Positions 26,260 to 59,404 of a stretch of 64,000 nucleotides of DNA are shown one piece after another. Source of the stretch: Verrucomicrobium sp. (GTDB lineage: Bacteria > Verrucomicrobiota > Verrucomicrobiia > Methylacidiphilales > UBA1321). The stretch lies in the NCBI GenBank assembly GCA_017849585.1, contig JAFIGT010000022.1, positions 62,001-126,000 of the forward strand. Reading direction: 5' to 3'. Numbering within the stretch: position 1 is the stretch's first letter; the number at the start of each line of letters is the position of its first letter. A program made the position numbers and the translations under genes. The notes under the pieces are model-generated. The model ran no database searches. It worked only from the letters and a program-made list of their open reading frames with translations, and was not told where the DNA came from.

Positions 26260-28721
26260 AAGGTGATTCCGAAGTTCTTGGCTCTTTCTATTATTAACCC
26301 ACCGTATCCGCCGGTCGGGTCAACGTAGAGTTGCTCAAAGAAAGGCTGGTTGGCGGCATCAGCCTGCATCAGGAATTTCTGCCAAAGACGCACGGTCTCG
26401 GCGTAACGCAGATCACCAGCCCGGCGCCTGGCCAGGCTATCGAGCGCCCTGCGAAGGGCTTCTGGATTTCGCCTGAGTTCCTCCTCCAATTCTTTCGACC
26501 ATGACTCAAAGAGGGATGGACTGGATTCGATCACTCTGGTGACGGCCATGGAATGACCTCCAAAAATGACGGCGCTCAAAAGCGAACTTTTCCATTTCTT
26601 CCAGATTGCGCGGTCGTTGAGCAAGGCAGCGGCGTAAGGCCGCGCTTCCAGTCCATGGTTTGCCAGCAAAATTGAAAACGCCGCACCGCTGTCGTGATAC
26701 CCTGCCGATTGGAGTACACCTTGACATTCTGACGGCAGTCGAATCAACACATCCTGTAAAGCCAAACAGCCGGCCGCATAGATGGGGGATATGACCGGCC
26801 CCGAAGTAAACTGTTTTTGGCATTCCACCGCCAAGGCAGAATCCTCCGGGATCAACATACTTTTCCAGACGGGCTCTACCGCTTCGTCCAAGTCAACGTC
26901 CCCCTCCTTGCATCCCTCCAGATAAGACTGCGAAAATCCCACGGCACGAGTGACCTGAATGGCATCCCCGGCAAGGACGCCCCCGGAACGCGATGGAAGC
27001 GCAGAAGCCATAGCGCGCCAACGCATATAGTCGTCGGTTTGATTGAGCCAGCGATCCATCAGTAATTCCCGGAGAGTCCCCGGAATGCCCCATAGCTCCA
27101 CAGCCAACCTTATCTGGGCCGCTCTCCGCCCCTCCGTCGTTCTCACAAAAGCGGCAAACCAGATCTTGAATCGTCCCACATCCTCACTGATTCCCCCGCG
27201 TGCGGCATCCGCCGCCGCTTGCTGCAACCATTGCCTTGCGGCGGGGTCATCATTCATTTTTCCGGATTGAACCAGCCAGCCGGAGAAAGCATGAAATAAT
27301 GCCGGATCGGTTTTCAGCATACTCTCGATCCAGACACGCGTGGCATCGCCAGAGGAAGGCACGGCCACAGCAAGGGCTTCCGACGCAAACACCGTTCCCG
27401 CCGAACTTTTAGCCGTCAGCATCGTTTTGGCAAAATTCCAATCGAGATTGATCGCAGTCCCCAATACCTCGCCATAGCGTTTCCAATCGTCATTCAGTAA
27501 TTCGCCTGCCGCCCGCCGCTGACGGAATTGAGGTGTATCGGCTCCTGCCGAGACCGCTGGTTTCCTTGCCGCGAGTGGTTCTGCATCCAATGCCTCGGCT
27601 GCTTGCTGAGCCAATGTCGCCTCCTGGGTCAAACTGACCCTGAGTGCTTGCAGGGTTGTCATGCCCACTACCGAAGCAGGACGGGTCAAATGCCAGACAA
27701 GGTAGTTGAACCATTTGTCGTCCCGCAAAATCAGTTCAGACCATTGCGCCAAGGCCCGATCGCTCGCCGAATCCTGTCCCGGATTTCGCCCCGGCTGAAA
27801 CCCATCCCCATAGAGCTGACGGCATACATATTCGTAACGGCTTTCCGGTATGACGCTGGCCTCAGTATAGGCAGCCAATAAGGGCAGGCCTTTGGCAAGC
27901 AACCCTGAGGCCATGTCACGTTGCAGCCTGTCATAAACAGGACTGGCGGCTTTGAGCCGTGTGAAAAGTTCCTTGGTGTAGAGTGGATCTTTCGCTACCG
28001 CTCCGAAAAAAGCCCGCCACACCGATTCATCCAGACTTTGATTGGTTCCCTGATTTCCTTGGGAACGCAACAGCACGCCCAAGGCGCAATTCGACAGACC
28101 CCACCGGGAATTGCTCTCGGCAATCTGGCAGCGCGCCGTAATGTCTCCATCAATAGCAGCCTGCCACAGGGCCTTGGCTGCCCGGCGTGACGCCCTTAAT
28201 CCAACCGCCACGGAGGTCGGGTCCTGTGGATGATCCCAGCACCATTCCAAGCCACGCAGAAACCGGGCCAATCCCGTTGGAGTCTCAAGCACATACTCCA
28301 CCAGAATTTCTTTGCTTGAAGGGTGCGCCATGACCGTTGATATGATTTTGCGGACACGTTCCGTCCCGCTCCCATTCGCCCACGCCGCCAGAATGGTGTC
28401 ACTTTCGTGTGGTGAAATATTGATCAGGGCCAGAGACGATTTGAGGGCTTGCGCCAATAACCAATCCCCCCGCTTCAACGCTTTCCCGATTGCCTCGGTG
28501 GCAGCGGGATCGGACAGCCATTGCTCCACGGCCGATTCGAGCAGCGCCTTGTTGATGACATGCTCCGCCGGCACGGAAGTTTGAACCAAGTATTTGCAGG
28601 CATTGTCCGTTCCCAGAGGGGCGCAAATTTCCTTGGCCTGACAGAAATCAGTAAGCGCGGCGGAATCCGCAGCCAATGCCAAGGACGGCACCGCGAAAAA
28701 CAGGAGCATCCATTGTGTCAT
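26256..28721 (-). CDS. Large exported protein of the T4SS operon, function unknown
   Basis: 821 residues from the ATG at 28721, eight bases after the VirB4 stop. MTQWMLLFFAVPSLALA is a signal peptide; a Cys-containing segment follows (DFCQAKEICAPLGTDNACKY). The remainder is helical and repetitive in feel (LLxxYVLETPTGLARF, VWIESMLKTDPALFHAFSGW), with no membrane segment and no recognised domain. By position it is a periplasmic or surface component of the conjugation machine, in the place where F-like systems carry TraW/TrbC/TraN-type proteins. The open frame upstream of 28721 overlaps virB4 and is not used. Confidence 0.65.
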   Translation of the reverse strand: MTQWMLLFFAVPSLALAADSAALTDFCQAKEICAPLGTDNACKYLVQTSVPAEHVINKALLESAVEQWLSDPAATEAIGKALKRGDWLLAQALKSSLALINISPHESDTILAAWANGSGTERVRKIISTVMAHPSSKEILVEYVLETPTGLARFLRGLEWCWDHPQDPTSVAVGLRASRRAAKALWQAAIDGDITARCQIAESNSRWGLSNCALGVLLRSQGNQGTNQSLDESVWRAFFGAVAKDPLYTKELFTRLKAASPVYDRLQRDMASGLLAKGLPLLAAYTEASVIPESRYEYVCRQLYGDGFQPGRNPGQDSASDRALAQWSELILRDDKWFNYLVWHLTRPASVVGMTTLQALRVSLTQEATLAQQAAEALDAEPLAARKPAVSAGADTPQFRQRRAAGELLNDDWKRYGEVLGTAINLDWNFAKTMLTAKSSAGTVFASEALAVAVPSSGDATRVWIESMLKTDPALFHAFSGWLVQSGKMNDDPAARQWLQQAAADAARGGISEDVGRFKIWFAAFVRTTEGRRAAQIRLAVELWGIPGTLRELLMDRWLNQTDDYMRWRAMASALPSRSGGVLAGDAIQVTRAVGFSQSYLEGCKEGDVDLDEAVEPVWKSMLIPEDSALAVECQKQFTSGPVISPIYAAGCLALQDVLIRLPSECQGVLQSAGYHDSGAAFSILLANHGLEARPYAAALLNDRAIWKKWKSSLLSAVIFGGHSMAVTRVIESSPSLFESWSKELEEELRRNPEALRRALDSLARRRAGDLRYAETVRLWQKFLMQADAANQPFFEQLYVDPTGGYGGLIIERAKNFGITL
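26292..26304 (-). promoter_or_regulatory. Shared element box inside a gene, CGGTGGGTTAATA
   Basis: A strong consensus match on the minus strand, 32 bases before the lipoprotein start, but inside the coding end of the upstream gene (codons for GGLII). The gap is longer than in other sites, so it may be an internal promoter or chance. Confidence 0.4.
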
Positions 28722-28728: not shown

Positions 28729-31323
28729 TCATCTTTTCTCCGGAATTCCGACGGGGTATTCCCGCGCCAGGGTGCGAAGCGCCAGCCACAGGTCCCCGTT
28801 GGCGGCCTCAACGCCCTGGCTGCGCAGGACACTTTCGTTCGGCTTTGTCGAGAACAACCAATATTCCTCGGGCATGAGATTGATCCGAAGCCGTCCACTT
28901 TCCCGTTGAGTTCCTTTGCCGCGTACCATCAAACACTCCCGAAAAAGTTCCGGGTGTCCCGATTCATTGACCCGTTTGGAGGATCTCAGGTCATTCAAAA
29001 TATTCACCTGTCCCGAGGTCAACCCCAACAGTTTTTGGACAGACTCGACATGCGAGTCATCCCCTTGAGTAAACAGGAACCATGTCTGTACGCATTGCTC
29101 AATGGCCTCGGCGACTCGCGAATTAAAGTTAAGGTCGGCGATAGACTGCGAACTGCCGATTACCGCTGTGTTTTCTTTCCGGTATCGCTTGAAGGCCCCG
29201 ATGATCCGGTCGGCCAACAAGGGATGCCGGATGTATTCGAAGATTTCGTCACAAACAAAAATCTTCCGGACGTCCCTCGAATTGAGGATCAAATCCTGAA
29301 TGAGATCGACGCATAACGGAATCAAGGGGCGAGCCAGATCCGGGTAATCCTTGAACCCCTGCAGGTCCATCACCAATGCTTCTCCATCCGGCCGCCATTC
29401 GGTGGCTCCGTCGAACCACTCGCCCCAGGTGCCACCCCGAACATACGGGCGTAGACGTTCCACCAGCTCTTGCGCTCCGTTGGTTTTGAGCGCGTCCGAA
29501 AAGTCGCTCAACGTGACCATCGTTTTCTTGCGATTGATCGCCTTGGCAAAAGCGTGCGTGATCGAAACGACCACCACGTTTTTCATTTCCGCCGATAACC
29601 CCGCCTCCTCCTTCGGACTCGCTAAAAAAGCTTCAAGCGCTTTGGCGTACCGGGCGATCTCGGCCTCACCGGGTTCATGCAAACCATCCCCAAGGGAAAG
29701 CACCTGAAAAAGATTAAAGCAGACCGGCTTTTTTGGATTAAAGGTGAAGACACGAATCCCGAGCAAATCAGCCAATTGGTTGTAACTGCCACCCACATCG
29801 AGAATCAAAATCCGGACTCCACGCAACGCATGCGAACACAATAAAGCGAGGGCCAGCACCGATTTCCCTGAACCCGTCGCCCCGGAGATAAATGCCATCG
29901 GTGCGGTCGCGGTGGTCGAATCGAAAAGATCGATCGGCACCAAACCGTTGGTGGCATTGCGAAATAACGCCACCGGCTTGTCGGAGGTTTCGAATCCCCG
30001 GTTGAGAAGGCACATATCAGCAATCATGCGGCTCCGGTACTTTTTCGGCTCCAGCATCGGTCCTCCCGCTGCGGGCATGCTCTGCAACAAAATCGGTAGG
30101 ACAGCGTGTCGTTCTGCATACCCACGCGCCGATCCCATGTCTCCCAATCGCGTTAAGAGAATGTCCCGGCGTCGGATCAATTCAACGGGGTCGCGATGCC
30201 AGAAATGCCAGGTTTGCTGGGCCAGCATGAGGCTTTCACGCCCACCGCGCAGATCGGCAATGAGCGCATTGGCTTCCCGAACCATCTCGTTGGCTTCTTC
30301 GTTGGAACTCTGGCCATCCTGCGTTCTTCCAGTTGTTTTCAACGGGTCTTGAACCAGTTCCAGCCAGTTGGAGGAAACATCCTTTGCCGCCTCAGCTTCC
30401 ACCCGCTTGGCCCGCAACCTCGCCCGCTCCTCGATCTGGTCGAGCCGCCGGATACGCAATAATGTCCTAAACTGCCGGAAAGGGATTCCCGCCGATACGG
30501 TGTCGGAAATGCGCGGCCAAGTTTCCAGCGGTTTTCCCATCAAGGAAACCACCGTGTGATAAGTTTCGTCCCAACGGATTAGTCCTGATCCTGGGGCGAT
30601 CCGCCCATCGGTTTTCCACGGAACTGTATCCACGTCCCCTAGAAGCCATGAATCGAGAAACTGCGTTTCTTCCTCCCGGTAACGCACTGGTATTCCCAAT
30701 TCCACGGCGGCCCAATGGTTCAGAACCCGGTAAAAATAGTCAGCCACCCGATCTCCTCCGAGAATGGTGATTTTGGCACCCACGCGATGCGCCCAATCCT
30801 GCGCCACTTCAACGGCGTTCTGCAGGACCGGCTCCATTTTACAGAACTCCATGTCCGTCACTGGTTGACGCAAAAACTTCTCATTTTTCCGAAGGACGGG
30901 AACACTGCCCAAGGTGATATGCGTGGCAGCGGGAATCAGGATTCCTTCCCGAATTTCCTGAGCGGCCAAATCTCCTTTGAGCTGACGCATTTTCCGCAAC
31001 ACCTCTCGGTCATGTTCAAAACCTGTGTACTCGCCAAGCATGGGGCCATAATCCCCGGTGGCCGTGAACATGAATTCCACTTCGCCGATGGATTCAGGAA
31101 GACGGGACAAGAGCGCCACGAGTTGGTCTTGAACCGCGGTCAAACGGTCTACCGAAAAAACATCCATCGTCGGTGCTTGCAGTTCGGCCATCTGGTGGAC
31201 GCCTCCCCATGCGTCCAGAATATACGAACCTTTCAAATCGACCGGGCTGGCAAATTCCGCCGGATCGGGATAACGATGGCCCGATACCCAGCCAAGCCGA
31301 GGAATGCCTTTGGTGGAAAACAT
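28729..31323 (-). CDS. virB4: Type IV secretion ATPase, VirB4/TraC family
   Basis: 864 residues from the ATG at 31323 (MFSTKGIPRLGWVSG), 5 bases after the TraL-like stop; a TTG at 31407 would overlap that gene by 79 bases. Walker A FISGATGSGKS lies near residue 481, followed by ILILDVGGSYNQLADLLG, and Walker B IFVCDEIFEYI near 688, with a Gln-containing AVIGSSQSIADL motif after it. The N-terminal part (GEVEFMFTATGDYGPML) fits the VirB4 barrel domain. It powers pilus assembly and substrate transfer at the inner membrane. It is the clearest marker that this operon is a conjugation system. Confidence 0.92.
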   Translation of the reverse strand: MFSTKGIPRLGWVSGHRYPDPAEFASPVDLKGSYILDAWGGVHQMAELQAPTMDVFSVDRLTAVQDQLVALLSRLPESIGEVEFMFTATGDYGPMLGEYTGFEHDREVLRKMRQLKGDLAAQEIREGILIPAATHITLGSVPVLRKNEKFLRQPVTDMEFCKMEPVLQNAVEVAQDWAHRVGAKITILGGDRVADYFYRVLNHWAAVELGIPVRYREEETQFLDSWLLGDVDTVPWKTDGRIAPGSGLIRWDETYHTVVSLMGKPLETWPRISDTVSAGIPFRQFRTLLRIRRLDQIEERARLRAKRVEAEAAKDVSSNWLELVQDPLKTTGRTQDGQSSNEEANEMVREANALIADLRGGRESLMLAQQTWHFWHRDPVELIRRRDILLTRLGDMGSARGYAERHAVLPILLQSMPAAGGPMLEPKKYRSRMIADMCLLNRGFETSDKPVALFRNATNGLVPIDLFDSTTATAPMAFISGATGSGKSVLALALLCSHALRGVRILILDVGGSYNQLADLLGIRVFTFNPKKPVCFNLFQVLSLGDGLHEPGEAEIARYAKALEAFLASPKEEAGLSAEMKNVVVVSITHAFAKAINRKKTMVTLSDFSDALKTNGAQELVERLRPYVRGGTWGEWFDGATEWRPDGEALVMDLQGFKDYPDLARPLIPLCVDLIQDLILNSRDVRKIFVCDEIFEYIRHPLLADRIIGAFKRYRKENTAVIGSSQSIADLNFNSRVAEAIEQCVQTWFLFTQGDDSHVESVQKLLGLTSGQVNILNDLRSSKRVNESGHPELFRECLMVRGKGTQRESGRLRINLMPEEYWLFSTKPNESVLRSQGVEAANGDLWLALRTLAREYPVGIPEKR

Positions 31324-31328
31324 AAAAT

Positions 31329-31637
31329 CTAGCCATGCTGGCCGCGTGACGATCCTCGGTCCAATTGATGACGAAAGCGCTTCGGCGCATAAAACTCCCA
31401 ACGCCAATATTCCAGAAAATGTCCCGGCTTTCCCCGAAAGTAGAATTTCAAAATACCGTAGGAAATAAACCCAGCCAGCAACGCCAGGAGAAAACTCCTT
31501 GGGGGAATGTTCATCAAAAAAATCCCCACAAAGAATGGGAGCATGAAGAGACGCCCGGGAAGTCCCAATACCTCCCCCCGGTCTTCCGTAATGATGGATG
31601 AGCGCGTCTTGGGCAATTGCCCCTGTTCCGAATTCAT
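31329..31637 (-). CDS. T4SS inner-membrane protein, VirB3/TraL-like
   Basis: 102 residues with two close hydrophobic segments (MLPFFVGIFLMNIP and FLLALLAGFISYGILK) and a basic cytoplasmic tail (FRGKPGHFLEYWRWEFY). Size, topology and position directly before virB4 match VirB3/TraL, which links the pilus-assembly ATPase to the membrane. It overlaps the upstream pilin-like gene by 4 bases. Sequence similarity is too low by eye to choose between the VirB3 and TraL names. Confidence 0.75.
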   Translation of the reverse strand: MNSEQGQLPKTRSSIITEDRGEVLGLPGRLFMLPFFVGIFLMNIPPRSFLLALLAGFISYGILKFYFRGKPGHFLEYWRWEFYAPKRFRHQLDRGSSRGQHG

Positions 31638-31930
31638 GAACCCGCCCCTGATGAGAGAATCAAAGAGGTAATCCCACCTGAGACAACAATCATGACGAAT
31701 CCGATCGCGAACGAAATGATCCGGTCGGTTTTTCCTCCCACCAAGGCTTGATCGACCCAGAGCAGAACTCCGTAAACGGAAGCCAGTCCAAGGGCAATGC
31801 CCCCCACGTAATTGTTGGCGGCGGAAAGGGAATTCTGGATGACGCTACTCAAGTCACCACTCCCGCTGGATTGAGCCGAAGCGGATAAGGTTCCCCATAA
31901 CAAGAATAAAACGGATGCTTTCCAGTTCAT
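31634..31930 (-). CDS. Pilin-like protein, VirB2/TrbC type (copy 2)
   Basis: 98 residues. A signal peptide (MNWKASVLFLLWGTLSASAQ) precedes a mature part with two hydrophobic helices (YVGGIALGLASVYGVLLWVD and IISFAIGFVMIVVSGGITSL) separated by a short charged loop (GGKTDR). This is the layout of conjugative pilins. Its start overlaps the stop of the other pilin-like gene by one base (TAATG-type junction). One of the two may form the pilus and the other a minor or variant subunit. Confidence 0.78.
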   Translation of the reverse strand: MNWKASVLFLLWGTLSASAQSSGSGDLSSVIQNSLSAANNYVGGIALGLASVYGVLLWVDQALVGGKTDRIISFAIGFVMIVVSGGITSLILSSGAGS

Positions 31931-32250
31931 CAGCTTGCTCCCGTCGCCGCTTTCGTGAATTCGATGAACGCACCAACGATGCCCAGCCCGATCGCTGACA
32001 CTAACGCGCCAATGGCAACGGTTTTATTCACCGCCCACATCATGAATCCAACTACGCCCAATAGCCCGATCACGACCCAGGCCACGGCGCGAAAATTGAG
32101 ATAAAGATTGAAGACAGTGCTGATGAGGTCTCCACCCATGGTCGGGCTGGAACTCAATGTCCCGGCCAGCACACCTTCCGGCCAAACAACCATCGTCCAT
32201 ATAGCGATAAGGAAAATTCGATAATACTCGCGGCGGACATCCACGTTCAT
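31930..32250 (-). CDS. Pilin-like protein, VirB2 type (copy 1)
   Basis: 106 residues. A leader (YYRIFLIAIWTMVVWPEGVLAG) is followed by two membrane helices (FRAVAWVVIGLLGVVGFMMW and IGALVSAIGLGIVGAFIEF) around a short NKTV loop, as in VirB2. The ATG lies 8 bases after a shared GTTAATA box, so transcription can restart here inside the operon, which would give extra pilin mRNA. AAGGG immediately upstream could also serve as a ribosome site. Confidence 0.78.
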   Translation of the reverse strand: MNVDVRREYYRIFLIAIWTMVVWPEGVLAGTLSSSPTMGGDLISTVFNLYLNFRAVAWVVIGLLGVVGFMMWAVNKTVAIGALVSAIGLGIVGAFIEFTKAATGAS

Positions 32251-32258: not shown

Positions 32259-32271
32259 TATTAACTCATGG
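32259..32271 (-). promoter_or_regulatory. Shared element box, CCATGAGTTAATA
   Basis: It fills the 15-base gap between the exported-protein stop (32266) and the pilin start (32250), with 8 bases from box to ATG. An internal promoter for the pilin genes fits their need for high expression. Confidence 0.7.
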
Positions 32272-33051
32272 CTTTTGGGCAATCCGGAACACGACCTCTC
32301 CACACGTTTTTAGGGTTAGGCGCAATTGCTCATCGTTGACGAACTCACCAAGCCTTGACCGGGCCGCGTCAAGAGCGGTGGCCGTCCACCCGGCAATGAG
32401 CAACCCCTTCGTGTCTAAGCGAGCCCGCCATCTTCCTTTCTGTGAAGACGGGGAAACGAGTTCCTCCGTTTTTCCATTGTCGGCCACATACCGGACCGCC
32501 ATCGGACTGCTGTAGATGAACCAGCCTTCAGCCACCCTCTGAATGACAATGGCTTGAAAGATCTGCAGACTGCCTCCACTCAAACGGATGGCCCCTTTGA
32601 GAAGTGCGCCGTTTTCCCCATTCGGTAGCACCCGCCATGCGATGGGTTGCTCGCCTTCAGGATTGAGATTCGGCTGACGCGCAAACCGGATTTTGAGTTG
32701 CCCGGTTTCCCACCACTGCTTGGAGAGATCAACTGGAACCGGAAAGGCGCTTAAGGTGAATGGAATTTTCTCGGAGACAGAAAGACTCTCGATCCAGCTC
32801 CTCTGATCAATAACGTTGGCAACTGCTTTGGGAGTTTGTGAAATGGTGGATGTGGCCGGAACCGCTGCGGGAGGGATTGATGGGGTTGGTGCTGATGGTG
32901 GTGCCGGATTAACGGCTGCCGCCGGGTCCATATCCGGAAGCAAACCAGTTGGTGCTGAATCCGCCGCATGGATCATTCCGGTCTGCAAAAAGAGAATGCA
33001 GAAAAAGCTACCGGCTCTTTTCCAGAAATTTGATTTGCTGCAAAAGCGCAT
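32266..33051 (-). CDS. Exported T4SS-operon protein with proline-rich linker
   Basis: 261 residues. A signal peptide (AGSFFCILFLQTGMIHAADS) is followed by a Pro/Ala-rich linker (about 35-80) and a beta-rich C-terminal half (PVPVDLSKQWWETGQLKIRF, EGWFIYSSPMAVRYVADNG). In conjugation operons this place is often held by VirB9/TraK-type secretin-like or periplasmic proteins. I see no definite signature, so the role is by position only. The start overlaps the upstream gene by 44 bases. Confidence 0.65.
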   Translation of the reverse strand: MRFCSKSNFWKRAGSFFCILFLQTGMIHAADSAPTGLLPDMDPAAAVNPAPPSAPTPSIPPAAVPATSTISQTPKAVANVIDQRSWIESLSVSEKIPFTLSAFPVPVDLSKQWWETGQLKIRFARQPNLNPEGEQPIAWRVLPNGENGALLKGAIRLSGGSLQIFQAIVIQRVAEGWFIYSSPMAVRYVADNGKTEELVSPSSQKGRWRARLDTKGLLIAGWTATALDAARSRLGEFVNDEQLRLTLKTCGEVVFRIAQKP

Positions 33052-33556
33052 TTCTTCGAGCCGTTAGACGGTTGATTTCATCTTGAAGGGGATTTTCCGC
33101 GGAGTCCTCGGCCGAGGAGACAACATAGGTATCGCCCTCCTTTTTGATCACCACATCCGTCAACTGAGTCAACGGGACGATCAAATCATCGACTGTAATT
33201 CCGCCGCCGGTTTGAATGGCGATAGTCAGCGTTCCCCCCGCTTGCTTCGCCGCACGCTGAAGCGCCCACAGTTCGCGCAGGTCCAGTCTTAACTTCGAAA
33301 ATGTCGGTTGTAGAGGCTGCGGTAATTGCCCGTTCTGGGCGGCAGAAATGGAAGAGGTGGCTACCGGAGAAACCGCGACAGTTGGTCGGGACGGACCGAT
33401 GTCAACAGGAGTAGAAGCCGTAGCCAAGCTCACTGCCTCCACTTTCAACAGCTCGGCTTTTTCTTCTTTTTGGGGTGGCTGTTTAGGTCCGGCAAGAAGT
33501 CCCGTGCCAGCTAAAACCAGTATCACGGCACTCATCAAAATCGTATGCGTTCTCAC
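33008..33556 (-). CDS. Exported coiled-coil protein, first gene of the T4SS operon
   Basis: 182 residues, GTG start. A signal peptide (TILMSAVILVLAGTGLLAG) leads to a low-complexity Pro/Ser/Thr region, a compact middle domain (LTIAIQTGGGITVDDLIVPL) and a C-terminal coiled coil (LQDEINRLTARRNALLQQIK). The GTG follows a GTTAATG box by 7 bases with no ribosome site, so it would be read from a leaderless mRNA if the box is a promoter. Role unknown; a periplasmic scaffold is plausible. Confidence 0.65.
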   Translation of the reverse strand: MRTHTILMSAVILVLAGTGLLAGPKQPPQKEEKAELLKVEAVSLATASTPVDIGPSRPTVAVSPVATSSISAAQNGQLPQPLQPTFSKLRLDLRELWALQRAAKQAGGTLTIAIQTGGGITVDDLIVPLTQLTDVVIKKEGDTYVVSSAEDSAENPLQDEINRLTARRNALLQQIKFLEKSR

Positions 33557-33563: not shown

Positions 33564-33576
33564 CATTAACACACGC
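33564..33576 (-). promoter_or_regulatory. Shared element box, GCGTGTGTTAATG
   Basis: Seven bases before the GTG of the first T4SS gene. It differs from the core only at the last base. It is divergent from the box for the sigma gene at 33680-33692. Confidence 0.6.
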
Positions 33577-33679: not shown

Positions 33680-33692
33680 GGATGTGTTAATA
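33680..33692 (+). promoter_or_regulatory. Shared element box before the sigma factor, GGATGTGTTAATA
   Basis: The core lies 43 bases before the GTG start at 33736, a longer gap than elsewhere. An ATG at 33702 lies 9 bases after the box and would open a 37-codon upstream ORF. Presence of the box implies the sigma factor may control its own gene. Confidence 0.6.
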
Positions 33693-33701: not shown

Positions 33702-33815
33702 ATGGTAAGATCAAACGTGAAACACAGGAGGAGTTGTGGGAGTCAACATGGCTACATGTGGCAGTGGGACAAAACGAACGGATTCCGAATGGGTAGAACT
33801 CGCGCGACAGCATGA
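33702..33815 (+). CDS. Possible upstream ORF overlapping the sigma factor start
   Basis: 37 codons in a different frame from the sigma gene, beginning 9 bases after the shared box (the normal spacing) and ending inside the sigma coding region. The product (MVRSNVKHRRSCG...) is basic and has no recognised feature. It could be a leaderless regulatory ORF that tunes sigma translation, or chance. Confidence 0.25.
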   Translation: MVRSNVKHRRSCGSQHGYMWQWDKTNGFRMGRTRATA

Positions 33816-34590
33816 CAGCACCGCGATCCAATGGGCGCTTGACCAAACGAAACGTTCACGCTCATTGGAGGCACGCAAATGGTTCCGAGGGGAAGCCGAT
33901 ATTTGCGATGCCGAACAGCAAGGCGTATTGGGTGTTTTTGATGCGATTGAGAAATTTGACACCAAGCTATCAAGCTCCTTCGCGGTTTATGCCGGCTGGC
34001 GTATCAAGCGCCGGATTCAAGGTTACTTTCATAACACCGTCTTCCCTGTCCGGCTTCCTTCCTGGCTTCATGAAAAGCGGATCAAATTTCTTCGCCACGC
34101 CCAATCCGCCACCGAACTGTATGATTTGATGGTCAAAAATAGCGTCCAACCTGACATCGCCCGAGTTGCCGCGTTTGTCACCGCCAGCCCTTCGATGGAC
34201 GGGCTCACCGAACACGAGGAAAATCCTCACATGTTCGTGGTTCTCAAGGATCGGGAAGTTCCGATTTCAGCCCCATCTGACGCTGGAGAATTCGACGGGG
34301 AAACCAGCCTTCTGAACGAACTTCTGGATTCCCTGCCACGCCAACAGGCTACGCTCTTGCGTCAACTGTGGAGAATAGAACACCACGATAAAGACATCGC
34401 CGATGTCCTGCGCGAGATGAACCTTACCATCGAGGAAGGAAATGAAATCCAGAAAAAAGCCATCATGCGTCTTCGCCGCCATCCCAAATTGAAGCAGTTC
34501 GCGCGACGGCTCAAATTCAAAACCGTGGATGAACTTCCCGATTTCGTCCTGATCTCAAAATCATCGACAAAAAAGCGTTCGACATTCTGA
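33736..34590 (+). CDS. Element-encoded RNA polymerase sigma-70-family factor
   Basis: 284 residues. Region 2 is clear: ADICDAEQQGVLGVFDAIEK then FDTKLSSSFAVYAGWRIKRR, followed by VFPVRLPSWLHE, like the start of region 3. A region 4-like helix-turn-helix occurs at about 195-250 (LPRQQATLLRQLWRIEHHDK, IQKKAIMRLRRHP). GGAGG sits 4 bases before the GTG; an ATG at 33748 is an alternative. It lacks the long region 1 of housekeeping factors. Preceded by the shared box and divergent from the T4SS operon, it is the best candidate to read the GTTAATA promoters. Confidence 0.82.
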   Translation: MGVNMATCGSGTKRTDSEWVELARQHDSTAIQWALDQTKRSRSLEARKWFRGEADICDAEQQGVLGVFDAIEKFDTKLSSSFAVYAGWRIKRRIQGYFHNTVFPVRLPSWLHEKRIKFLRHAQSATELYDLMVKNSVQPDIARVAAFVTASPSMDGLTEHEENPHMFVVLKDREVPISAPSDAGEFDGETSLLNELLDSLPRQQATLLRQLWRIEHHDKDIADVLREMNLTIEEGNEIQKKAIMRLRRHPKLKQFARRLKFKTVDELPDFVLISKSSTKKRSTF

Positions 34591-35186: not shown

Positions 35187-35199
35187 TGGCGTGTTAATA
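35187..35199 (+). promoter_or_regulatory. Shared element box, TGGCGTGTTAATA
   Basis: Seven bases (GTACTTC) separate it from the ATG at 35207. No ribosome-binding sequence exists in that gap, which is one of the strongest cases for leaderless translation. Confidence 0.7.
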
Positions 35200-35206
35200 G
35201 TACTTC

Positions 35207-35527
35207 ATGGGCACATCCACCTACCTGCTTCCCCAGACGCGCTGCACCCAAAAATTGGAGACTCTGATGTCGAATGAGCTGGGGGTCACTGCATTGGAAG
35301 GGTTGGAGGCTGTCCTTGTCACCACACCCGCCAATCGTGAAATCATCATTATCTGCTTATCGGGTCGCTGGCATACGGGCCGTCTCATTTATGGAGTAGG
35401 CGATGCCTATGCCACCATCAATTGCCCCGTTCACGCGCAACATATTCCCGCCATCCATCCGCTGTTCCGAACCGTTGTCGTCTGCGCCGCATTGATCAAA
35501 AGGCTGCACAATGTACGGAGAAATTAA
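35207..35527 (+). CDS. Hypothetical protein, first of a three-gene operon
   Basis: 106 residues, no signal peptide. The second half is hydrophobic-to-mixed (REIIIICLSGRWHTGRLIYG, FRTVVVCAALIKRL). Not recognised. It overlaps the next gene by 17 bases and starts directly after the shared box. The two genes that follow encode membrane proteins, so the operon probably builds one membrane complex. Confidence 0.6.
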   Translation: MGTSTYLLPQTRCTQKLETLMSNELGVTALEGLEAVLVTTPANREIIIICLSGRWHTGRLIYGVGDAYATINCPVHAQHIPAIHPLFRTVVVCAALIKRLHNVRRN

Positions 35528-36329
35528 TGGGATGCTCCTGCCGCTTTCCATTGTCACCATCGGCACGGGCATCATTCTTTTTTGGGAACTGGACCGGTAC
35601 ATCCCCTCATGGATAGGCACCCAGGAACGGAGCGCGTGGTTGATCCCTGTGTGTTCTATCTTGGGAATATTTTTTCTCACCCTGCAGCTTGTGGGAACAT
35701 GGAGACCGGCATGCGCGGGGATGTCTGTAAGTTTTTTACTCCTCAGTTGCCTCCTTCGGATCAGGCAGATTCGTGGCCAGGGAATTCAAAAGGAAATCGT
35801 CTTTCACAAATTGCTCTCCAGCCCCGGCACCAGTTTCAGGCGTGAAAATATCAATGCCCGGTGGGAAGAAATACGGGATCGCCTCGTGTTTTTTATCCAA
35901 GAAGAAGACTGGCAACAATTACCCGCATCGGCACTCGAAGTGCGCGGCTGGTTTGAACGCTTCCAGATCGCACCGGGCCTTTACTCCACTTCATCTGACA
36001 ATGATACCCTGCTCTTGGTAGATTCCCTCCAGCTTTATAAATTTCTGCTCTCTTCCGATCATGCCTCGGCTGTTGCAAAATTTGCCGAACTACTACAATC
36101 CCCCTCAGAGCCCTCCACCACTGAACCCCATCCGCCCAGTACTTCTTCTCCCCAGCTTCCACTCTCCGAAACTCCAGCGGCACCATCGGTTGACTTGATT
36201 TCGACCAACGCTTCGCCACGATCGGTCAAACGACACGCACGGCGAAAGCCAGTCCGAAAGCCACCTACGGAAGGGGGGCCACAACAATTGGTTCTCAAAG
36301 CTCGCCCGCCCGTCGAAAAAACAAAATGA
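35511..36329 (+). CDS. Multi-pass membrane protein with basic proline-rich tail
   Basis: 272 residues. Three hydrophobic segments lie in the first 80 residues (LLPLSIVTIGTGIILFW, AWLIPVCSILGIFFLTLQ, SVSFLLLSCLLRI). A soluble middle domain follows (EEIRDRLVFFIQEEDWQQLP), then a Pro/Ser-rich and strongly basic tail (SVKRHARRKPVRKPP). ATG at 35511 has AAAGG eight bases upstream. Not recognised. Its stop overlaps the next ATG by 4 bases. Confidence 0.6.
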   Translation: MYGEINGMLLPLSIVTIGTGIILFWELDRYIPSWIGTQERSAWLIPVCSILGIFFLTLQLVGTWRPACAGMSVSFLLLSCLLRIRQIRGQGIQKEIVFHKLLSSPGTSFRRENINARWEEIRDRLVFFIQEEDWQQLPASALEVRGWFERFQIAPGLYSTSSDNDTLLLVDSLQLYKFLLSSDHASAVAKFAELLQSPSEPSTTEPHPPSTSSPQLPLSETPAAPSVDLISTNASPRSVKRHARRKPVRKPPTEGGPQQLVLKARPPVEKTK

Positions 36330-37111
36330 TTACGGCTCTATTTTTGCTTCTGTGCTACGGCGTCGCATTCCGGCAGCTGGAATCTCATCCGCAGCCGCTT
36401 CCTTTTACGCCCCATCACGCCATGCAATTGCATGACGGCCTGAGAAAATGGATCTGGATCGGATGGATCAGTCTCATCCTGATTTCTCTGGCCTTATGCC
36501 TGGGCGATGTCACCGCCGATTTCGGGAAAGCCATGTTTGTCGTCGTATCGGCCTCGCTGTTTCTGACGGGTGGCTATGATCTCCTCTCGCTGACCCAAAC
36601 GTCCCGACCGGTCCAAAAGACAACCATCCAATGGGGCCGAGATCTTTTCGATACGCCACTCAAACCCACCGGCACGGTCAAACTGGCAAAAGATCTTTAC
36701 GCTTCCTCCCAAGCCGTGGAGAAAACCGACCTCACTCCCTGGTTGCCCGAAGAATTGGTGCGGCGCATTCTTTCCAGTTCGCAACTGGCAGATCAAAAAA
36801 CAGCCGATCTGGCCGCACAAAATTTGAAACTGAATGCGGCTTACAGCGAATGGCGTGAAAAAGCCACGCAGGCGCTGGCTGACCTGACCTCTGAAACAAA
36901 CGCCAAAAATCAATTATTACAGACCAATGCCACGCTCCGGGCCAAAGTTGCGACCGGCGAACCGCCTTTTGTTCAAATGACAGTTGAGGAACTGGACAGG
37001 GCCCGTAAACGACGGATGCAAGAGATTGCCGTGATTGACGATCTTCAAACGAAACGAAACCTCAAAAAAAGCAACAAACCTGACAACACCTTGCCTCTTA
37101 CTTTTCAGTAA
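36326..37111 (+). CDS. Membrane protein with coiled coil, unknown
   Basis: 261 residues. Hydrophobic segments occur at about 2-15, 41-60 and 70-87 (WIWIGWISLILISLALCLG, AMFVVVSASLFLTGGYD). A helical, probably coiled-coil region spans about 160-215 (NLKLNAAYSEWREKATQAL) before a Lys-rich tail. Topology resembles that of the preceding gene, with which it overlaps, so both likely sit in the same membrane assembly. No family recognised. Confidence 0.6.
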   Translation: MITALFLLLCYGVAFRQLESHPQPLPFTPHHAMQLHDGLRKWIWIGWISLILISLALCLGDVTADFGKAMFVVVSASLFLTGGYDLLSLTQTSRPVQKTTIQWGRDLFDTPLKPTGTVKLAKDLYASSQAVEKTDLTPWLPEELVRRILSSSQLADQKTADLAAQNLKLNAAYSEWREKATQALADLTSETNAKNQLLQTNATLRAKVATGEPPFVQMTVEELDRARKRRMQEIAVIDDLQTKRNLKKSNKPDNTLPLTFQ

Positions 37112-38197: not shown

Positions 38198-38512
38198 TTA
38201 CCTCCCCGACGAATGCTGGACGGCGTTAATGATCTCCTGAAGTGGCCCCACGCCCTCGTTGCCACGCTTAAGGGAAAGCTTCGCCACTGCGGAGGTAATG
38301 GGCGAGATGGCATCTGCAATACCTCCATGGGTCTGGGCCAGATTGTTGGCAAAATAAGCCATAAAATTATTGTGCTGCGCAACCGAAGCATCGAGCTGCG
38401 CTTCAAGCCAGGAAAAGGCTCCCGAGGCCGTCTTGCCGGCCATGGTCTTCACCCGATGAAACTTGTTCGTGTTAGTGACCGGGATGGTTCTGGCGATTTT
38501 GGCGGAGTTCAT
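38198..38512 (-). CDS. Small hypothetical protein, first of a two-gene operon
   Basis: 104 residues, soluble and helical, with a basic N-terminus (AKIARTIPVTNTNKFHRVKT) and no recognised domain. The ATG at 38512 lies 10 bases after the shared box. It is paired with the glycine-zipper protein and could act as its chaperone or immunity partner, a guess from size and order only. Confidence 0.55.
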   Translation of the reverse strand: MNSAKIARTIPVTNTNKFHRVKTMAGKTASGAFSWLEAQLDASVAQHNNFMAYFANNLAQTHGGIADAISPITSAVAKLSLKRGNEGVGPLQEIINAVQHSSGR

Positions 38513-38522: not shown

Positions 38523-38535
38523 TATTAACCCATGG
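38523..38535 (-). promoter_or_regulatory. Shared element box, CCATGGGTTAATA
   Basis: Ten bases from box to the ATG at 38512. Upstream it shares GCCCAA with the box at 32259 (both read GCCCAA before the CCATG). Confidence 0.7.
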
Positions 38536-38852: not shown

Positions 38853-39812
38853 ATGAACTTAACTGACGCTCAACTCAATACCTTCGTTTCAAAAGTCCTT
38901 CATTTAGGACGAGGCAAACGAAAGGAATATCTTGACCAAGTTGATTTTCTGATTGGGGGCTTGAACAAAAAGATCAAGGAAGATGATTCATTTAAGGTTA
39001 CTGATTTTAAAAAAACCGGCTCCATCATGAAAGGAACCGTTCTCAAACCGCGGGGAGATTTTGGCGTCGATGCTGATATAGCTGTATTCTTGGATATTTC
39101 GGAAAGCGAAAAAGACGATGTCGACAACCTGCACAAGATTATCCGCGATCTCCTCGTTGCCGTATATCCGACCAAAAAGCCCGATGACTTTAAAGTCCAA
39201 CCTCGTACACTCGGCATTCATTTTCGTACTTCGGGACTCGATGTGGATCTTGTTCCGGTGATCCCAATCTCCCAACAACCTGGATATGGATGGCAACCAT
39301 CCTCTCAACGGGGGCATCCTGTAAAAACATCTATTCAAGGACAGTTGGATTTTATTAAAAAACGAAGAGATTCTGATCCGAGGTTCAAAACATTAGTCCG
39401 CTTGCTTAAAAATTGGCGAAATGAGAAAGAACTTGATCGGCTTCGATCTTTTTCCATCGAACTTATCGTAGCGCATTTGTACGATCAAAATGGTGCCGCG
39501 TCTTCGTTAGAATCAGGACTTCAGCGCTTCTTTCTGTATGTCGCTCAGTCCCAACTTAAAAAACGAATTGTTTTCCCGGAGCTTGGCAATGTAACAACTT
39601 TTCCCAACGACCCAGTGGTAATTCTTGATCCTGTAAATAAAGATAACAATGTTGCCGCTCGACTAACAGCAACCGAAAGAGATGAGATCGTAGTTGCCGC
39701 CGAAAGCGCATGGTCCACTATCGAGGCGGCAAGTTGGAAAGCAGGAAAAGGCGATACTCTCGATCTTTGGAAGGATGTTATGGGACGGTCGTTTGTAATC
39801 GAAGAGGAATAA
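38853..39812 (+). CDS. CBASS cyclic-oligonucleotide synthase (CD-NTase)
   Basis: 319 residues. The nucleotidyltransferase core shows the G-S motif TGSIMKGT (G56-S57), the metal-binding pair in GVDADIAVFLD (D73, D75) and a third acid in SGLDVDLVPVIP (about D130/D132). A helical C-terminal domain follows (FSIELIVAHLY). Proteins of this family sense phage infection and make cyclic di- or trinucleotides that switch on a cell-killing effector. The HORMA and TRIP13-like genes downstream place it in type III CBASS, where the synthase is usually clade C or D; I cannot fix the clade by eye. Confidence 0.9.
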   Translation: MNLTDAQLNTFVSKVLHLGRGKRKEYLDQVDFLIGGLNKKIKEDDSFKVTDFKKTGSIMKGTVLKPRGDFGVDADIAVFLDISESEKDDVDNLHKIIRDLLVAVYPTKKPDDFKVQPRTLGIHFRTSGLDVDLVPVIPISQQPGYGWQPSSQRGHPVKTSIQGQLDFIKKRRDSDPRFKTLVRLLKNWRNEKELDRLRSFSIELIVAHLYDQNGAASSLESGLQRFFLYVAQSQLKKRIVFPELGNVTTFPNDPVVILDPVNKDNNVAARLTATERDEIVVAAESAWSTIEAASWKAGKGDTLDLWKDVMGRSFVIEEE

Positions 39813-39816
39813 ACCT

Positions 39817-40335
39817 ATGAGTCTAACTGGAACACGAACTACGACGTATACAGTCGCAGATATTCGAAAAGTTGTGGAGAATTTCGCAGCTGACTTTTCG
39901 ATGATGGCGCAAGCAACAGGGTTGAGAACTAGGGAAAATGTTGCTCAGGTTGTTTCCGATCTCAATATTTTCGCTGAATATGCATACCTAAAGAAAGTGT
40001 CGCTATTTCTCAGAGATAAGGATGGCAATAAGCTCCGAATTGCCGTCTATGACATTTCTGATTCTGCGGCAGGTTGGAAATCGGAAGCCCCCGGCAACAA
40101 TCTCTGGCCATCAACACCCGGAGGATCGTTATCCGTGGTAGCCGACTTAAACCAATCTTGGTGGAATAAAGCGGATACAGACAAGGCCGCATTCATCAAA
40201 AAGCACGGATTGCACTTTGGCTGGGAAGCAACCACTCAGGATACTTCCGCGACTGGACTTAACCCCAGTACTGGACAAAAATATGCCAGCAATGGGTATG
40301 GCTGGGCTCGGACCAATTACAGTAGGGAATCATGA
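39817..40335 (+). CDS. cap7: Bacterial HORMA-domain protein, CBASS type III regulator
   Basis: 172 residues, starting 5 bases after the synthase. The N-terminus TYTVADIRKVVENFAADFSM and the middle YLKKVSLFLRDKDGNKLRI fit bacterial HORMA proteins, and the C-terminus (NGYGWARTNYSRES) could be the mobile safety-belt segment. In type III systems, HORMA binds a peptide from the phage, closes and activates the CD-NTase. The identification rests on weak similarity plus the adjacent TRIP13-like gene. Its stop overlaps the ATPase start by 4 bases. Confidence 0.8.
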   Translation: MSLTGTRTTTYTVADIRKVVENFAADFSMMAQATGLRTRENVAQVVSDLNIFAEYAYLKKVSLFLRDKDGNKLRIAVYDISDSAAGWKSEAPGNNLWPSTPGGSLSVVADLNQSWWNKADTDKAAFIKKHGLHFGWEATTQDTSATGLNPSTGQKYASNGYGWARTNYSRES

Positions 40336-41246
40336 TGAAAGAAGGAAACTCGGCGCTATTTGAATTGGAGGTACAACTTCCTGATGCTCGGCTGACAGCA
40401 CAAGCAGAAAGGTTAATTGGATTTAAAACACGCTTCGAACGTATCCATCAAGATTTACTTCTCCTCATTGATAAGGAAGGATTGGAGCGATGGAGTAAGC
40501 AGCATTATCATTCGCGTCTTCCATTATTGGATTCGTTGCTCGACCGCTATCCTCTCGTCGTTTTTCACGGTGATGTAGGAACTGGAAAAACAGCGACAGC
40601 CGAGGCTGTTTCCAATGCCATTGCGAAGGAACTAGGGAAAGAAGCCATGCTTTTCAAACTGAGCACGCGCGTGCGTGGGAGCGGTAATGTTGGGGAGATG
40701 AGTACGCTTATCAATCAGGCATTTGATCTCGTATGCAAGGAGGCTGGAAAAGCGAAGCTATCCTTTTTGATTATTGATGAAGCAGACTCTTTAGCTGCCA
40801 GCCGCTCAGGACACCAAAGTCATCATGAAGATAAAGTAGCTGTAAATACCTTGATTCAAAAAATAGATGATATCAGACGTTTTAATGGCCGTATTTTGGT
40901 AATCTTCTGTACTAATCGTTACGAGGCGATTGATCCTGCAATTTTGCGCCGAGCCGCTTATGTGGAAAAATTTAGTAGGCCTGATGATAGAGAGAGGCGC
41001 GAAATCTTTAATATGGATTGCGCCGGAATGGGCATGACCGCAGTGATGATTGATGAATTGGTAAAGCTGGCTGGCCCTCAAGGCCCACATAAACTCAGCT
41101 ATACATTTTCAGACATTCGCACTCGCCTTCTTCCTGAAGCGTTGGGATTAGCCTATCCATCCCGGAAAATTAGTCAGAACGATTTGGTGGAGGCCATTTC
41201 CAGAGTTCATCCGTCACCAACTATCGAAGAATCTGGAAAACGCTAA
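40332..41246 (+). CDS. cap6: TRIP13/Pch2-like AAA+ ATPase of CBASS
   Basis: 304 residues. Walker A FHGDVGTGKTA (80-88), Walker B LSFLIIDEADSLAASRSG (about 144-160), sensor-1-like ILVIFCTNRYEAIDP and an arginine-containing ILRRAAYVEKF match the TRIP13 class. It dismantles the active HORMA-synthase complex, keeping the system off without infection. The start ATG at 40332 overlaps the HORMA stop. Its last base overlaps the first base of the effector start codon, so the four genes are tightly coupled. Confidence 0.9.
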   Translation: MMKEGNSALFELEVQLPDARLTAQAERLIGFKTRFERIHQDLLLLIDKEGLERWSKQHYHSRLPLLDSLLDRYPLVVFHGDVGTGKTATAEAVSNAIAKELGKEAMLFKLSTRVRGSGNVGEMSTLINQAFDLVCKEAGKAKLSFLIIDEADSLAASRSGHQSHHEDKVAVNTLIQKIDDIRRFNGRILVIFCTNRYEAIDPAILRRAAYVEKFSRPDDRERREIFNMDCAGMGMTAVMIDELVKLAGPQGPHKLSYTFSDIRTRLLPEALGLAYPSRKISQNDLVEAISRVHPSPTIEESGKR

Positions 41247-42412
41247 TGAATCTGAATGGTCGCCGCATTCATATTGTTGGTAGTGCAGATCCTGAATCCG
41301 ATCCGGTTAAGTTGCAGTATGCCCACTCACTTCTTTCAAAATTAACATTTGCCTTGGCGAAAGAAGGAGCAACTTTTGTTATTCCCATTGCAAGTGAACC
41401 TTTATTAAAAGATCGTACCGACGGTCCATCAATTATTTTTGATTGGACGATCGTGGAAACAATTCATCGCGCATTAAATGAAGAAGGCGTAAGTCCCACA
41501 GGTTCCAATGGCCGTCTCATAGCAACCTTAGTAACTTCCAAGACAGACGGACAAATTCCATCAACTCGTCGCGAAATTTACGATGATCTTAGGGATAGGG
41601 AGGCTATCTATATGGATTTTTTGCCTCCGGGATGGACGGCGGGAGCCCTACGAAGACAAAGACTCGCTCAGCTTGGAGATATTTTAATTGGCGTAAGTGG
41701 TGGGCAAGGGGTTGAACAACTGGCGATTGAATACTCTACCAAGGGTAAACCAGTTATCCCCCTTGACCTGGCAATGGGAGCTTCACAACGGGATGGATCT
41801 GGAGGAGCAGCACGCCTTTTTGATCGAGCTCTCGCAACACCGGCAGATTTTTTCGGCGTTGTAGAAGGAGGGTCTCCGGCTGAATTGCTGGAACGAACTC
41901 GGACACGAAATGGAGAAACCGACGCAGATAAGGTTGTTCAGTCGATAATGAATCTTCTGCATAAGTTGCTTCCGCCCCGCGTTTTTTATGTGCGTCTACT
42001 GAATGACGACTTACCGGAATATCCATCGGTTGAAAGCTTTTTTAGAAATACGGTGGATCCATTTGTTAAGCAATTAGGCTACGAACCATTGCAAATGGGG
42101 GTCGGTCAGAATACATTCGCCTGGATGAATCAAGCCATTTTTGATTCTTTACACCATAGCTCGGTTGCGCTGGTTGATCTTACGGGAGTGCGTCCCAATT
42201 GTTTTATGGAACTTGGATATGCCTTGGGTAATAGACAAAAGGTGATAGTAACGGCACGGAACGATACCCGCCTGCCATTTGATGCGTTTGCATTCGAAAC
42301 ATTTTTATGGAATGAATCCGAAGAGGATACTAACCGATTTGAACGATTACGTACCCATTGGGAGCGGAATATAAATATGCCTACTCTCGTGCGTCCGAAC
42401 GAGGCCATATGA
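41246..42412 (+). CDS. Two-domain CBASS effector candidate: SLOG-like plus TIR/NDT-like
   Basis: 388 residues. The N-terminal half starts with RIHIVGSADPESDPVKLQYA and has LAQLGDILIGVSGGQGVEQL, both like Rossmann-type SLOG or TIR-related nucleotide-binding domains. The C-terminal part has DSLHHSSVALVDLTGVRPNC followed by FMELGYALGNRQKVIV, the hallmark of nucleoside deoxyribosyltransferase-like or TIR-like NAD-cleaving domains. The obvious reading is a sensor domain for the cyclic nucleotide plus an NAD+ or nucleotide hydrolase. It sits where CBASS effectors normally lie. No nuclease or membrane segment is present. Confidence 0.72.
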   Translation: MNLNGRRIHIVGSADPESDPVKLQYAHSLLSKLTFALAKEGATFVIPIASEPLLKDRTDGPSIIFDWTIVETIHRALNEEGVSPTGSNGRLIATLVTSKTDGQIPSTRREIYDDLRDREAIYMDFLPPGWTAGALRRQRLAQLGDILIGVSGGQGVEQLAIEYSTKGKPVIPLDLAMGASQRDGSGGAARLFDRALATPADFFGVVEGGSPAELLERTRTRNGETDADKVVQSIMNLLHKLLPPRVFYVRLLNDDLPEYPSVESFFRNTVDPFVKQLGYEPLQMGVGQNTFAWMNQAIFDSLHHSSVALVDLTGVRPNCFMELGYALGNRQKVIVTARNDTRLPFDAFAFETFLWNESEEDTNRFERLRTHWERNINMPTLVRPNEAI

Positions 42413-43479: not shown

Positions 43480-43879
43480 GGTCTCCTTCCCTGTTGCGAG
43501 CTTGAATAGTTCTGGCCCGGGTCAGTCCGATCCCAGGCATTCCTTCCTCTCGATTGGAAAAGGCTTGGGATACTTTGCGGAGCAATTGGCGCATAATTCC
43601 CTGGCGGGCTTCCATCCGGCTTTGACGAATGCGCAACCGGATCTGAGCCACCTTTCCCAGCCCGATGGATTCCGCCTGAAATTTGTCCCAATTCTGGGTC
43701 GCTTCGGATTCGGCGCGATCGGCAGCGCGGCCCGCTACTTGGCTCAGTGTCTTGATGCCCTTGATTAAATTTGGACGTTCTGCACACACATGCTGGGCAG
43801 CGCGCTCGAATTCTTCTGGATGACTCTCGGCAAATTGAGTCAGGAGCATAAGCGATTGAACAGGAGCAGTAGGCTTCAT
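43463..43879 (-). CDS. Hypothetical basic helical protein
   Basis: 138 residues, rich in Arg, Gln and Ala (RIRQSRMEARQGIMRQLLRK), probably helical and nucleic-acid-binding or a structural subunit. It overlaps both neighbours (4 bases upstream, 17 downstream). Function unknown. Confidence 0.6.
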   Translation of the reverse strand: MKPTAPVQSLMLLTQFAESHPEEFERAAQHVCAERPNLIKGIKTLSQVAGRAADRAESEATQNWDKFQAESIGLGKVAQIRLRIRQSRMEARQGIMRQLLRKVSQAFSNREEGMPGIGLTRARTIQARNREGDRGHQR

Positions 43880-44481
43880 TTTTGAAGGGCCGGTTGGGGA
43901 GTTTCTTGAGATGCGGCGGGGGCGGCAGCCCGCGTCAGCGCCGGATTGGCCGCCGGAGTTGTAGGAACGGTTGCCGCTTGAACCGCGCCATTCTGTTTGC
44001 TGAGTTCCTTGTCTTCCGCAATTTGGAGCGCCCGCGTCTGTGGTTTCTGGGCCAGATGCGGGTGAAGTCGCTGTTTCAAGTCCTCATGGGATTTCACCAA
44101 GGATAACGCTTTGTCTTCAGCATTTTGAGCCACCAGTTCCTTGATATTGAAACTAATGCATTTCACCAACCGCTCCTTGGGAATATAGCTCTTAATCAAG
44201 TCGTAACTTTCGGCCATCCCATCCGGTCGAATTTCCCATTCGCCCTGGCGATTTTCCCAAAAGGCGCGCTGAATCGGCGCCTGATTGTCCAAGGCACTTT
44301 TCAAGACTCCCTTAAATTCTTTGACCTGTTTTTCGGCTTCCACCACCACTGGAAGGGAAGCATCAATGGCAGCGGCCGCCCCTTCCAGATCACCGGCATC
44401 CAGCATCTGCTTGATCGGCTCCAAGGCGGGCAAGGTCACCGGGGGCTTACCAACCGAGACGTCCTTTTTTTTAGTGCTCAT
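43876..44481 (-). CDS. Hypothetical helical protein with Ala/Pro-rich tail
   Basis: 201 residues. A Lys-rich start (MSTKKKDVSVGKPPVTLP) and helical body (VEAEKQVKEFKGVLKSALDN, DKALSLVKSHEDLKQRL) precede a low-complexity Ala/Thr/Pro tail from about residue 160. Not recognised. The ATG at 44481 is 9 bases after the shared box. First gene of the three-gene operon 44481-42991. Confidence 0.62.
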   Translation of the reverse strand: MSTKKKDVSVGKPPVTLPALEPIKQMLDAGDLEGAAAAIDASLPVVVEAEKQVKEFKGVLKSALDNQAPIQRAFWENRQGEWEIRPDGMAESYDLIKSYIPKERLVKCISFNIKELVAQNAEDKALSLVKSHEDLKQRLHPHLAQKPQTRALQIAEDKELSKQNGAVQAATVPTTPAANPALTRAAAPAASQETPQPALQK

Positions 44482-44490: not shown

Positions 44491-44503
44491 TATTAACTTA
44501 TCG
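44491..44503 (-). promoter_or_regulatory. Shared element box, CGATAAGTTAATA
   Basis: Nine bases to the ATG at 44481. It is divergent from the box at 44539-44551, so about 50 bases between the two boxes hold both promoters. Confidence 0.7.
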
Positions 44504-44538: not shown

Positions 44539-44551
44539 TCGTGGGTTAATA
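44539..44551 (+). promoter_or_regulatory. Shared element box, TCGTGGGTTAATA
   Basis: Seven bases (AGAAAGT) to the ATG at 44559. The spacing matches the putative -10 reading. Confidence 0.7.
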
Positions 44552-54242: not shown

Positions 54243-54255
54243 TATTAACCTACGG
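54243..54255 (-). promoter_or_regulatory. Shared element box, CCGTAGGTTAATA
   Basis: Starts at the stop codon of the preceding gene (54250) and lies 11 bases before the ATG at 54231. A GGGAGG occurs 17 bases upstream of TTAATA, as also (18 bases) at the 59405 site. Confidence 0.7.
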
Positions 54256-59396: not shown

Positions 59397-59404
59397 CTCC
59401 TTCC

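Follow-up and report, generated by a model that had tools for sequence, protein, structure and literature searches.

The locus and its gene content

The stretch of DNA analysed here, called the window, comprises 64,000 nucleotides (G000:C3:62001-126000) of a 4.8 Mb verrucomicrobial genome (G000) that is assembled in 43 contigs. Up to its end, contig C3 carries genes for VirB2, VirB4, a sigma factor, CBASS and T2SS/T4P-like proteins, and a second contig (C24) carries VirB6-, VirB10- and VirB11-like genes, a coupling protein and a tyrosine integrase. A T4SS ATPase, a coupling protein and an integrase, which are among the components by which an integrative conjugative element (ICE) is recognised, are all present, with the conjugation genes on two contigs (the right end of C3, and C24:26-60 kb), which represent either one element split by assembly or by rearrangement, or two islands. 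The hexamer TTAATA recurs in this region upstream of start codons, and the features relevant to its interpretation are as follows (positions in the window).

80-85, plus strand: box, 5 nt before the ATG of 91-609
26292-26297, minus strand: box, 32 nt before the ATG of the lipoprotein-like gene 25786-26259
28729-31407, minus strand: VirB4/TraG-like conjugation ATPase
32259-32264, minus strand: box, 8 nt before the ATG of the VirB2-like pilin gene 31930-32250, head of the virB2/virB4 operon
33564-33569, minus strand: variant box TTAATG, 7 nt before the GTG of 33008-33556, divergent from the sigma gene; matrix score 12.3
33687-33692, plus strand: box, 43 nt 5' of the sigma GTG; matrix score 21.8
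33736-34590, plus strand: sigma-70-family factor P0001 (region 2 by Pfam), GTG start preceded by AGGAGG-N4
35194-35199, plus strand: TTAATA box (CGTGTTAATA), 7 nt before the ATG of 35207-35527; matrix score 18.6
35207-35527, plus strand: 106-aa ORF with no Pfam match, heading three co-directional genes (35207-37111)
38523-38528, minus strand: box, 10 nt before the ATG of 38198-38512
44491-44496, minus strand: box, 9 nt before the ATG of 43876-44481; divergent pair with the box at 44546
44546-44551, plus strand: box, 7 nt before the ATG of 44559-45170
54243-54248, minus strand: box, 11 nt before the ATG of 53041-54231, at which a signal-peptide-like N-terminus starts
59405-59410, minus strand: box, 8 nt before the ATG of a 20-codon ORF preceding the T2SSF gene 58117-59337
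59823-59828, plus strand: box, 10 nt before the ATG of a 90-aa ORF
63987-63992, minus strand: box, 9 nt before the ATG of the secretin gene 62397-63977, at which a signal-peptide-like N-terminus starts

A first-pass annotation of this DNA had given twelve distances from TTAATA to a start codon (5, 7, 7, 7, 8, 8, 9, 9, 9, 10, 10 and 11 nt), which were reproduced exactly, and had seen no ribosome site in three of the gaps (GTACTTC, GGTAATTGC, GTTGTGTGTT), where indeed no Shine-Dalgarno (SD) sequence was found. As distances to gene starts, the values need correction at the boxes 49957, 33687 and 59410. The first of these lies 7 nt from an ATG whose ORF overlaps a response-regulator gene on the opposite strand, is preceded by T and not G, and falls below the matrix threshold. 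The ATG 9 nt past box 33687 is out of frame with the sigma gene and opens a short ORF, and the 20-codon ORF behind box 59410 (59337-59410, minus strand) has a stop that overlaps the start of the T2SSF gene (ATGA), which suggests that the two are translationally coupled. In total, the strong boxes at a distance of 5-11 nt from a start codon number about 15, and five more are found at 16-43 nt (26297 and C24 19030, 31850 and 17327 at 16-32 nt, and that of the sigma gene at 43 nt); these five, as well as the TTAATG before the GTG of 33008-33556, had been missed. Because in-frame stops lie 0-36 nt upstream of the start codon at most short-gap box genes, these start codons are pinned; at the box 35194, which is followed by the gap GTACTTC, the stop ends 6 nt 5' of the ATG.

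Not every part of the region carries the box. The CBASS operon at 38853-42412 (CD-NTase-like, HORMA, AAA and Cap17-like genes) has none and is cargo that is probably regulated separately, and no boxes were found in C24:1-25 kb. One strong box on the minus strand of C24 (L035:8959, C24:53.9 kb) is followed by an 8-codon ORF and then by a terminator made up of a hairpin and a T run (about 86 nt, z -3.3); its transcript is possibly a small RNA or a leader transcript.

Enrichment of the box before start codons

The number of TTAATA copies in the window (23 against 13.3 expected, with 1 of 100 shuffles reaching as many) is by itself a modest excess, and it is the position relative to the ATG that counts. 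On both element contigs, 16 of 43 copies lie 5-11 nt before ATG-initiated ORFs, where 1.15 are expected (P=1.5e-13), and when all 4096 hexamers are ranked by their occurrence before ATGs that open ORFs of at least 70 codons, TTAATA comes first in the element, above any SD hexamer. For the heptamer GTTAATA, the count is 14 of 24 copies (P=1e-14). A -10-like motif is, in other words, enriched about 6-9 nt before start codons in the element. The same test on 400 kb of host chromosome places 2 of 46 TTAATA copies before ATGs (1.5 expected), which is background.

Genome-wide, GTTAATA-N5..11-ATG occurs 35 times, as opposed to 19 for the reversed pattern, and 13 of these matches (12 distinct boxes) fall in C3:62-131 kb and another five in C24:38-54 kb. 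With a weight matrix built from the boxes, 21 sites in the element regions score at least 14, which is high by construction since the matrix was trained on element sites, and the independent rate in 1.6 Mb-strand of host is 0.6 per Mb-strand at this score, with none reaching 15.

Box architecture

In an alignment of 24 sites, TTAATA is preceded by TGnG and, about 10-12 nt upstream, by a tract rich in A; there is no conservation or information content at the -35 distance. Aligned on the TGn, the box can be written as TGn-GTTAAT-A here and TGn-CCTATT in relatives (see below), and neither form matches the TANNNT of primary sigma factors. The hexamer ends 6-12 nt before the ATG here (GTTAAT) and 8-10 nt before it in the relatives (CCTATT). 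Transcription by sigma70 normally starts 7-9 nt past the hexamer; with these distances, leaders of 0 to about 6 nt would be expected.

Two other functions of the box were considered. A role as a signal for translation initiation or at the RNA level inside longer leaders, for example as an SD substitute or as the binding site of an element protein, would fit the short, fixed distance to the ATG, and several boxes (32264, 54248) do directly follow the stop codon of a co-directional upstream gene. The same box is nevertheless found 16-43 nt from start codons, which is hard to explain for a translation signal, and it points both ways in short divergent intergenic regions (44496/44546, C24 44025/44061 and a 20-bp pair in the relative G041). 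Moreover, the box with the terminator hairpin leads to no gene, and the conserved TGn and A-tract would fall outside the mRNA, so that this reading is very unlikely. Alternatively, a DNA-binding regulator could have its operators at the boxes, overlapping the start codons, with promoters elsewhere. Some divergent pairs do form inverted repeats (C24 44025/44061), but most boxes are single, directional and point at a gene, and neither the alignment nor the hexamer ranking yielded another common promoter motif in the short upstream regions; an operator is hardly credible.

Among motif classes with a known function, an SD variant was rejected on distance and content, and also because an SD at proper spacing precedes 1 of 15 box-proximal genes versus 8 of 24 other element genes (small numbers). 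Integron-type cassette junctions (GTTRRRY) were rejected by reasoning, given that GTTAATA has a T at an R position; they are also disfavoured by genes that run in both directions in operons.

The sigma factor of the element

P0001 matches Sigma70_r2 (E=2e-6), and its residues 46-248 align to RpoS and SigA. Pfam did not recognise region 4 in P0001; regions 3 and 4 were each found in 6 of the 8 family members scanned, and regions 2, 3 and 4 of sigma-70 are in this sense all represented. An AlphaFold2 model of the factor alone is poor (pLDDT 45). In E. coli sigma70, the residues that read the -35 element are R584, R588 and Q589. Their equivalents, compared by eye, are not conserved in P0001, which would fit the missing -35. 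Region 2.4 reads YAGWRIKRRIQ in P0001 versus YAVHHIGNRVR in the sigma factors of elements that use CCTATT, a change that may parallel the change in the box.

Putative promoters of the same type are spread over the element and include one at the sigma gene itself, as is found for sigma factors of mobile elements. The box at 33687 is a putative autoregulatory promoter giving a leadered mRNA, and this leader should contain the AGGAGG. The C24 half of the conjugation genes has the same boxes, and no sigma ortholog of its own was found there, as expected for a factor acting in trans. A search for a close homolog of P0001 in the same genus found none, and no relatives of the element sigma or of VirB4 were found in IMG/VR.

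Related elements

The same VirB4 is found in Methylacidiphilum sp. Yel, Verrucomicrobia bacterium LP2A and Methylacidimicrobium cyclopophantes, so that the organism probably belongs to the Methylacidiphilum order of the Verrucomicrobiota. In elements of Methylacidiphilum, Methylacidimicrobium and further families of this order (genomes G023, G024, G029, G030, G032, G035, G038, G041, G043, G045 and G051), the sigma gene has an ortholog a few kb or less from VirB4, and in relatives the VirB4, VirB10-region and sigma genes lie together. Since greedy ORF calls are unreliable in the high-GC relatives, the starts of orthologous pilin genes, which head the virB operon, were used for comparison. These are preceded by CCTATT-N8-ATG in G032, G035, G024 and G043, and by CCTAT[T/A]-N9-ATG in G041, G045, G038 and G051 (CCTATA in G051). 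The orthologous VirB2 promoter, which is TTAATA-N8-ATG here, thus has its box 8-9 nt before the ATG in eight elements of two genera. In three of four Methylacidimicrobium-type elements the pilin gap is C-rich (AGATCCCCC, CAATCCCCC, CCCACCTCC), so no SD is possible there.

A genome of another family, G030, has the element sigma (E=2.5e-52; it was left out of the sigma alignment), and CCTATT is its top hexamer 8-10 nt before ATGs (6 of 9, expected 0.13, P=6e-9), with sites of the TGACCTATT-N8-ATG type at about nine genes in 20 kb. The longer pattern TGTCCTA-N11-ATG occurs seven times in three Methylacidimicrobium-type genomes, each time within or beside the element, although these counts stem in part from genomes that are closely related to each other. 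Across the whole genome of the AT-rich Methylacidiphilum, CCTATT was discarded as a signal because it is uninformative among abundant chance matches. Two start codons that diverge at a distance of 20 bp (G041:C1:365812-365824, L097, and the equivalent in G045, L099) each have a CCTA box 9 nt upstream.

The association has exceptions. G023, the closest relative by VirB4, has the sigma factor and no recognisable box, and in G019 a single CCTATT-N9-ATG stands at the pilin gene of a genome with no detectable element sigma. VirB4 is present, and no element sigma was found, in the genomes of G085, G021, G013 and G026; box enrichment is absent in the first three. Because of these genomes, the link between sigma factor and box stays at a strong correlation, that is, co-occurrence.

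Host promoters and the choice of sigma factor

The anti-SD of the host is canonical, and an SD core precedes 18% of 65 unambiguous host starts versus 6% in a control stretch. In 800 kb of host DNA, TTGnnn-N16-18-TAnnnT lies 5-9 nt before ATG-initiated ORFs 34 times, compared with 19-20 times at 10-19 nt and 3-10 times beyond 20 nt, and each sigma70 box alone gives a matching peak, with TANNNT at 6-9 nt before host genes. Judged by these patterns, this verrucomicrobial lineage has many sigma70 promoters of the leaderless type, and its SD use is weak. As the host has such promoters of its own, this mode of expression is not foreign to the cell; the element joins a private promoter to a mode that already exists, and this makes the first-pass claim less surprising. 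That claim, namely that a leaderless regulon would be unusual, carries over to the dedicated sigma factor with promoters at start codons and not to leaderless-type promoters as such.

These host promoters also raise the question of which sigma factor reads the box, as a -10 element giving near-leaderless mRNAs might be served by the primary or an alternative sigma of the host. The genome has a second conserved alternative sigma, found order-wide (G000:C4:37010), which could be the reader, and G019 has a CCTATT box with no element sigma detected. Arguing in the other direction, TTAATA shows no enrichment before host ATGs, the box has neither a -35 nor the -11A found in TATAAT, its matches cluster in the element regions, and the sigma gene is syntenic with the boxes across elements and has a box of its own. 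Reading by a host sigma is therefore unlikely, and we consider it probable that the element's own sigma uses extended -10 promoters that abut start codons, so that most of the mRNAs are leaderless or nearly so.

A dedicated sigma factor, the TGn extension, the occurrence in both divergent directions and the conserved distance to the ATG all indicate that the boxes act as -10 elements, which for most units would place +1 at the start codon or up to 6 nt before it. The following mechanism would connect the boxes, their enrichment and element-specificity, the forced start codons, the sigma gene with its conserved linkage, and the spacing in relatives. An integrative conjugative element of the order of Methylacidiphilum appears to encode its own sigma-70-family factor, which would recognise an extended -10 (TGn-GTTAAT-A here, TGn-CCTATT in several relatives) with no need of a -35. 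With the box 5-11 nt before the start codon at most transcription units, transcription would begin at the ATG or GTG, or at most about 6 nt before it, and the resulting leaderless or near-leaderless mRNAs would presumably be translated as such; a few units, that of the sigma factor included, would have leadered mRNAs from boxes 16-43 nt upstream. The earlier proposal that TTAATA is a -10 box with transcription starting at the codon is accordingly retained as probable for most units, and its extension to the whole regulon is not, given the boxes at 16-43 nt and the leader predicted for the sigma mRNA.

Comparison with known systems

Late promoters of phage T4, read by the sigma factor gp55, consist of a single -10-like block (TATAAATA) with no -35, and they are not fixed at start codons. 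The element resembles this system in its mobile-element sigma, its single -10-like block and the missing -35, and differs from it in that the sigma orthologs have a recognisable region 4 and the boxes stand at start codons. With VirB/Trb-type ICEs it shares VirB4, a VirB2-like pilin, TrbL/VirB6, TrbI/VirB10, a VirB11-like ATPase, a coupling protein and a tyrosine integrase, and unlike these it has a resident sigma factor, start-codon promoters, T2SS/T4P-like genes, CBASS and a location on two contigs.

A close parallel for the factor is SigN of the Bacillus subtilis plasmid pBS32 (PMC6751061), which is likewise encoded by a mobile element, has its regulon on that element and is positively autoregulated; the likeness meant here is one of features. 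SigN promoters have both -35 and -10, unlike the boxes described here, and leaderless mRNAs are not mentioned for them in that paper. For the promoters, a close parallel is found in the leaderless genes with a -10 motif adjoining the ORF in Deinococcus-Thermus (PMC12340547) and in bacteria generally (PMC3160421), in which, as in the element, a -10-like box lies about 6-9 nt before the start, often with no -35, and no SD is needed. In those cases the box is TANNNT, read genome-wide by the primary sigma, whereas the box described here is a different one, confined to a conjugative element with a sigma of its own.

Searches of the open-access literature turned up no description of a conjugative element that combines a sigma factor of its own with leaderless genes. 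The unusual part is that a whole family of conjugative elements would have a dedicated sigma with its promoters at start codons. Leaderless mRNAs are usually treated as a trait that a lineage shows throughout its genome under the primary sigma. In the present case, start-codon promoters appear to be tied to the private sigma of a mobile element, and the box sequence changes from element to element and keeps its distance to the start codon. This provides a natural system for studying selection on promoter-to-start-codon distance and the translation of leaderless messages, bears on the activation of conjugation in Methylacidiphilum-type bacteria, and makes the elements and their gene starts recognisable from sequence alone via the box. 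It is possible, as a more tentative idea, that an order-wide family of conjugative elements evolved a dedicated sigma with promoters fixed at start codons, and that switching on transfer would shift the regulon to leaderless mRNAs whose translation is independent of SD pairing (e.g. under stress or in a new host).

Defence-like cargo and a second box

The region C24:25-38 kb (L034) holds defence-like cargo (ThiF with Prok-E2, AbiEii, an N6 methylase, DpdA and a WGR-ligase). At least seven genes have a different box, CCCCGTAG[TC]CT, 6-8 nt ahead of their ATG, and an eighth has it at 10 nt (G000:C24:26442-42888, L034). Eight of the 14 genome-wide matches to CCCGTAGNNT-N4..10-ATG fall in this interval, the reversed control giving 5, and CCCGTAGTC is absent from 800 kb of host. 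Its -10 element would be TAGYCT, exactly at the leaderless distance. The palindrome CCCGTAGACTACGGG at 20-34 in the window, just upstream of the box at 80, holds this second box in both directions.
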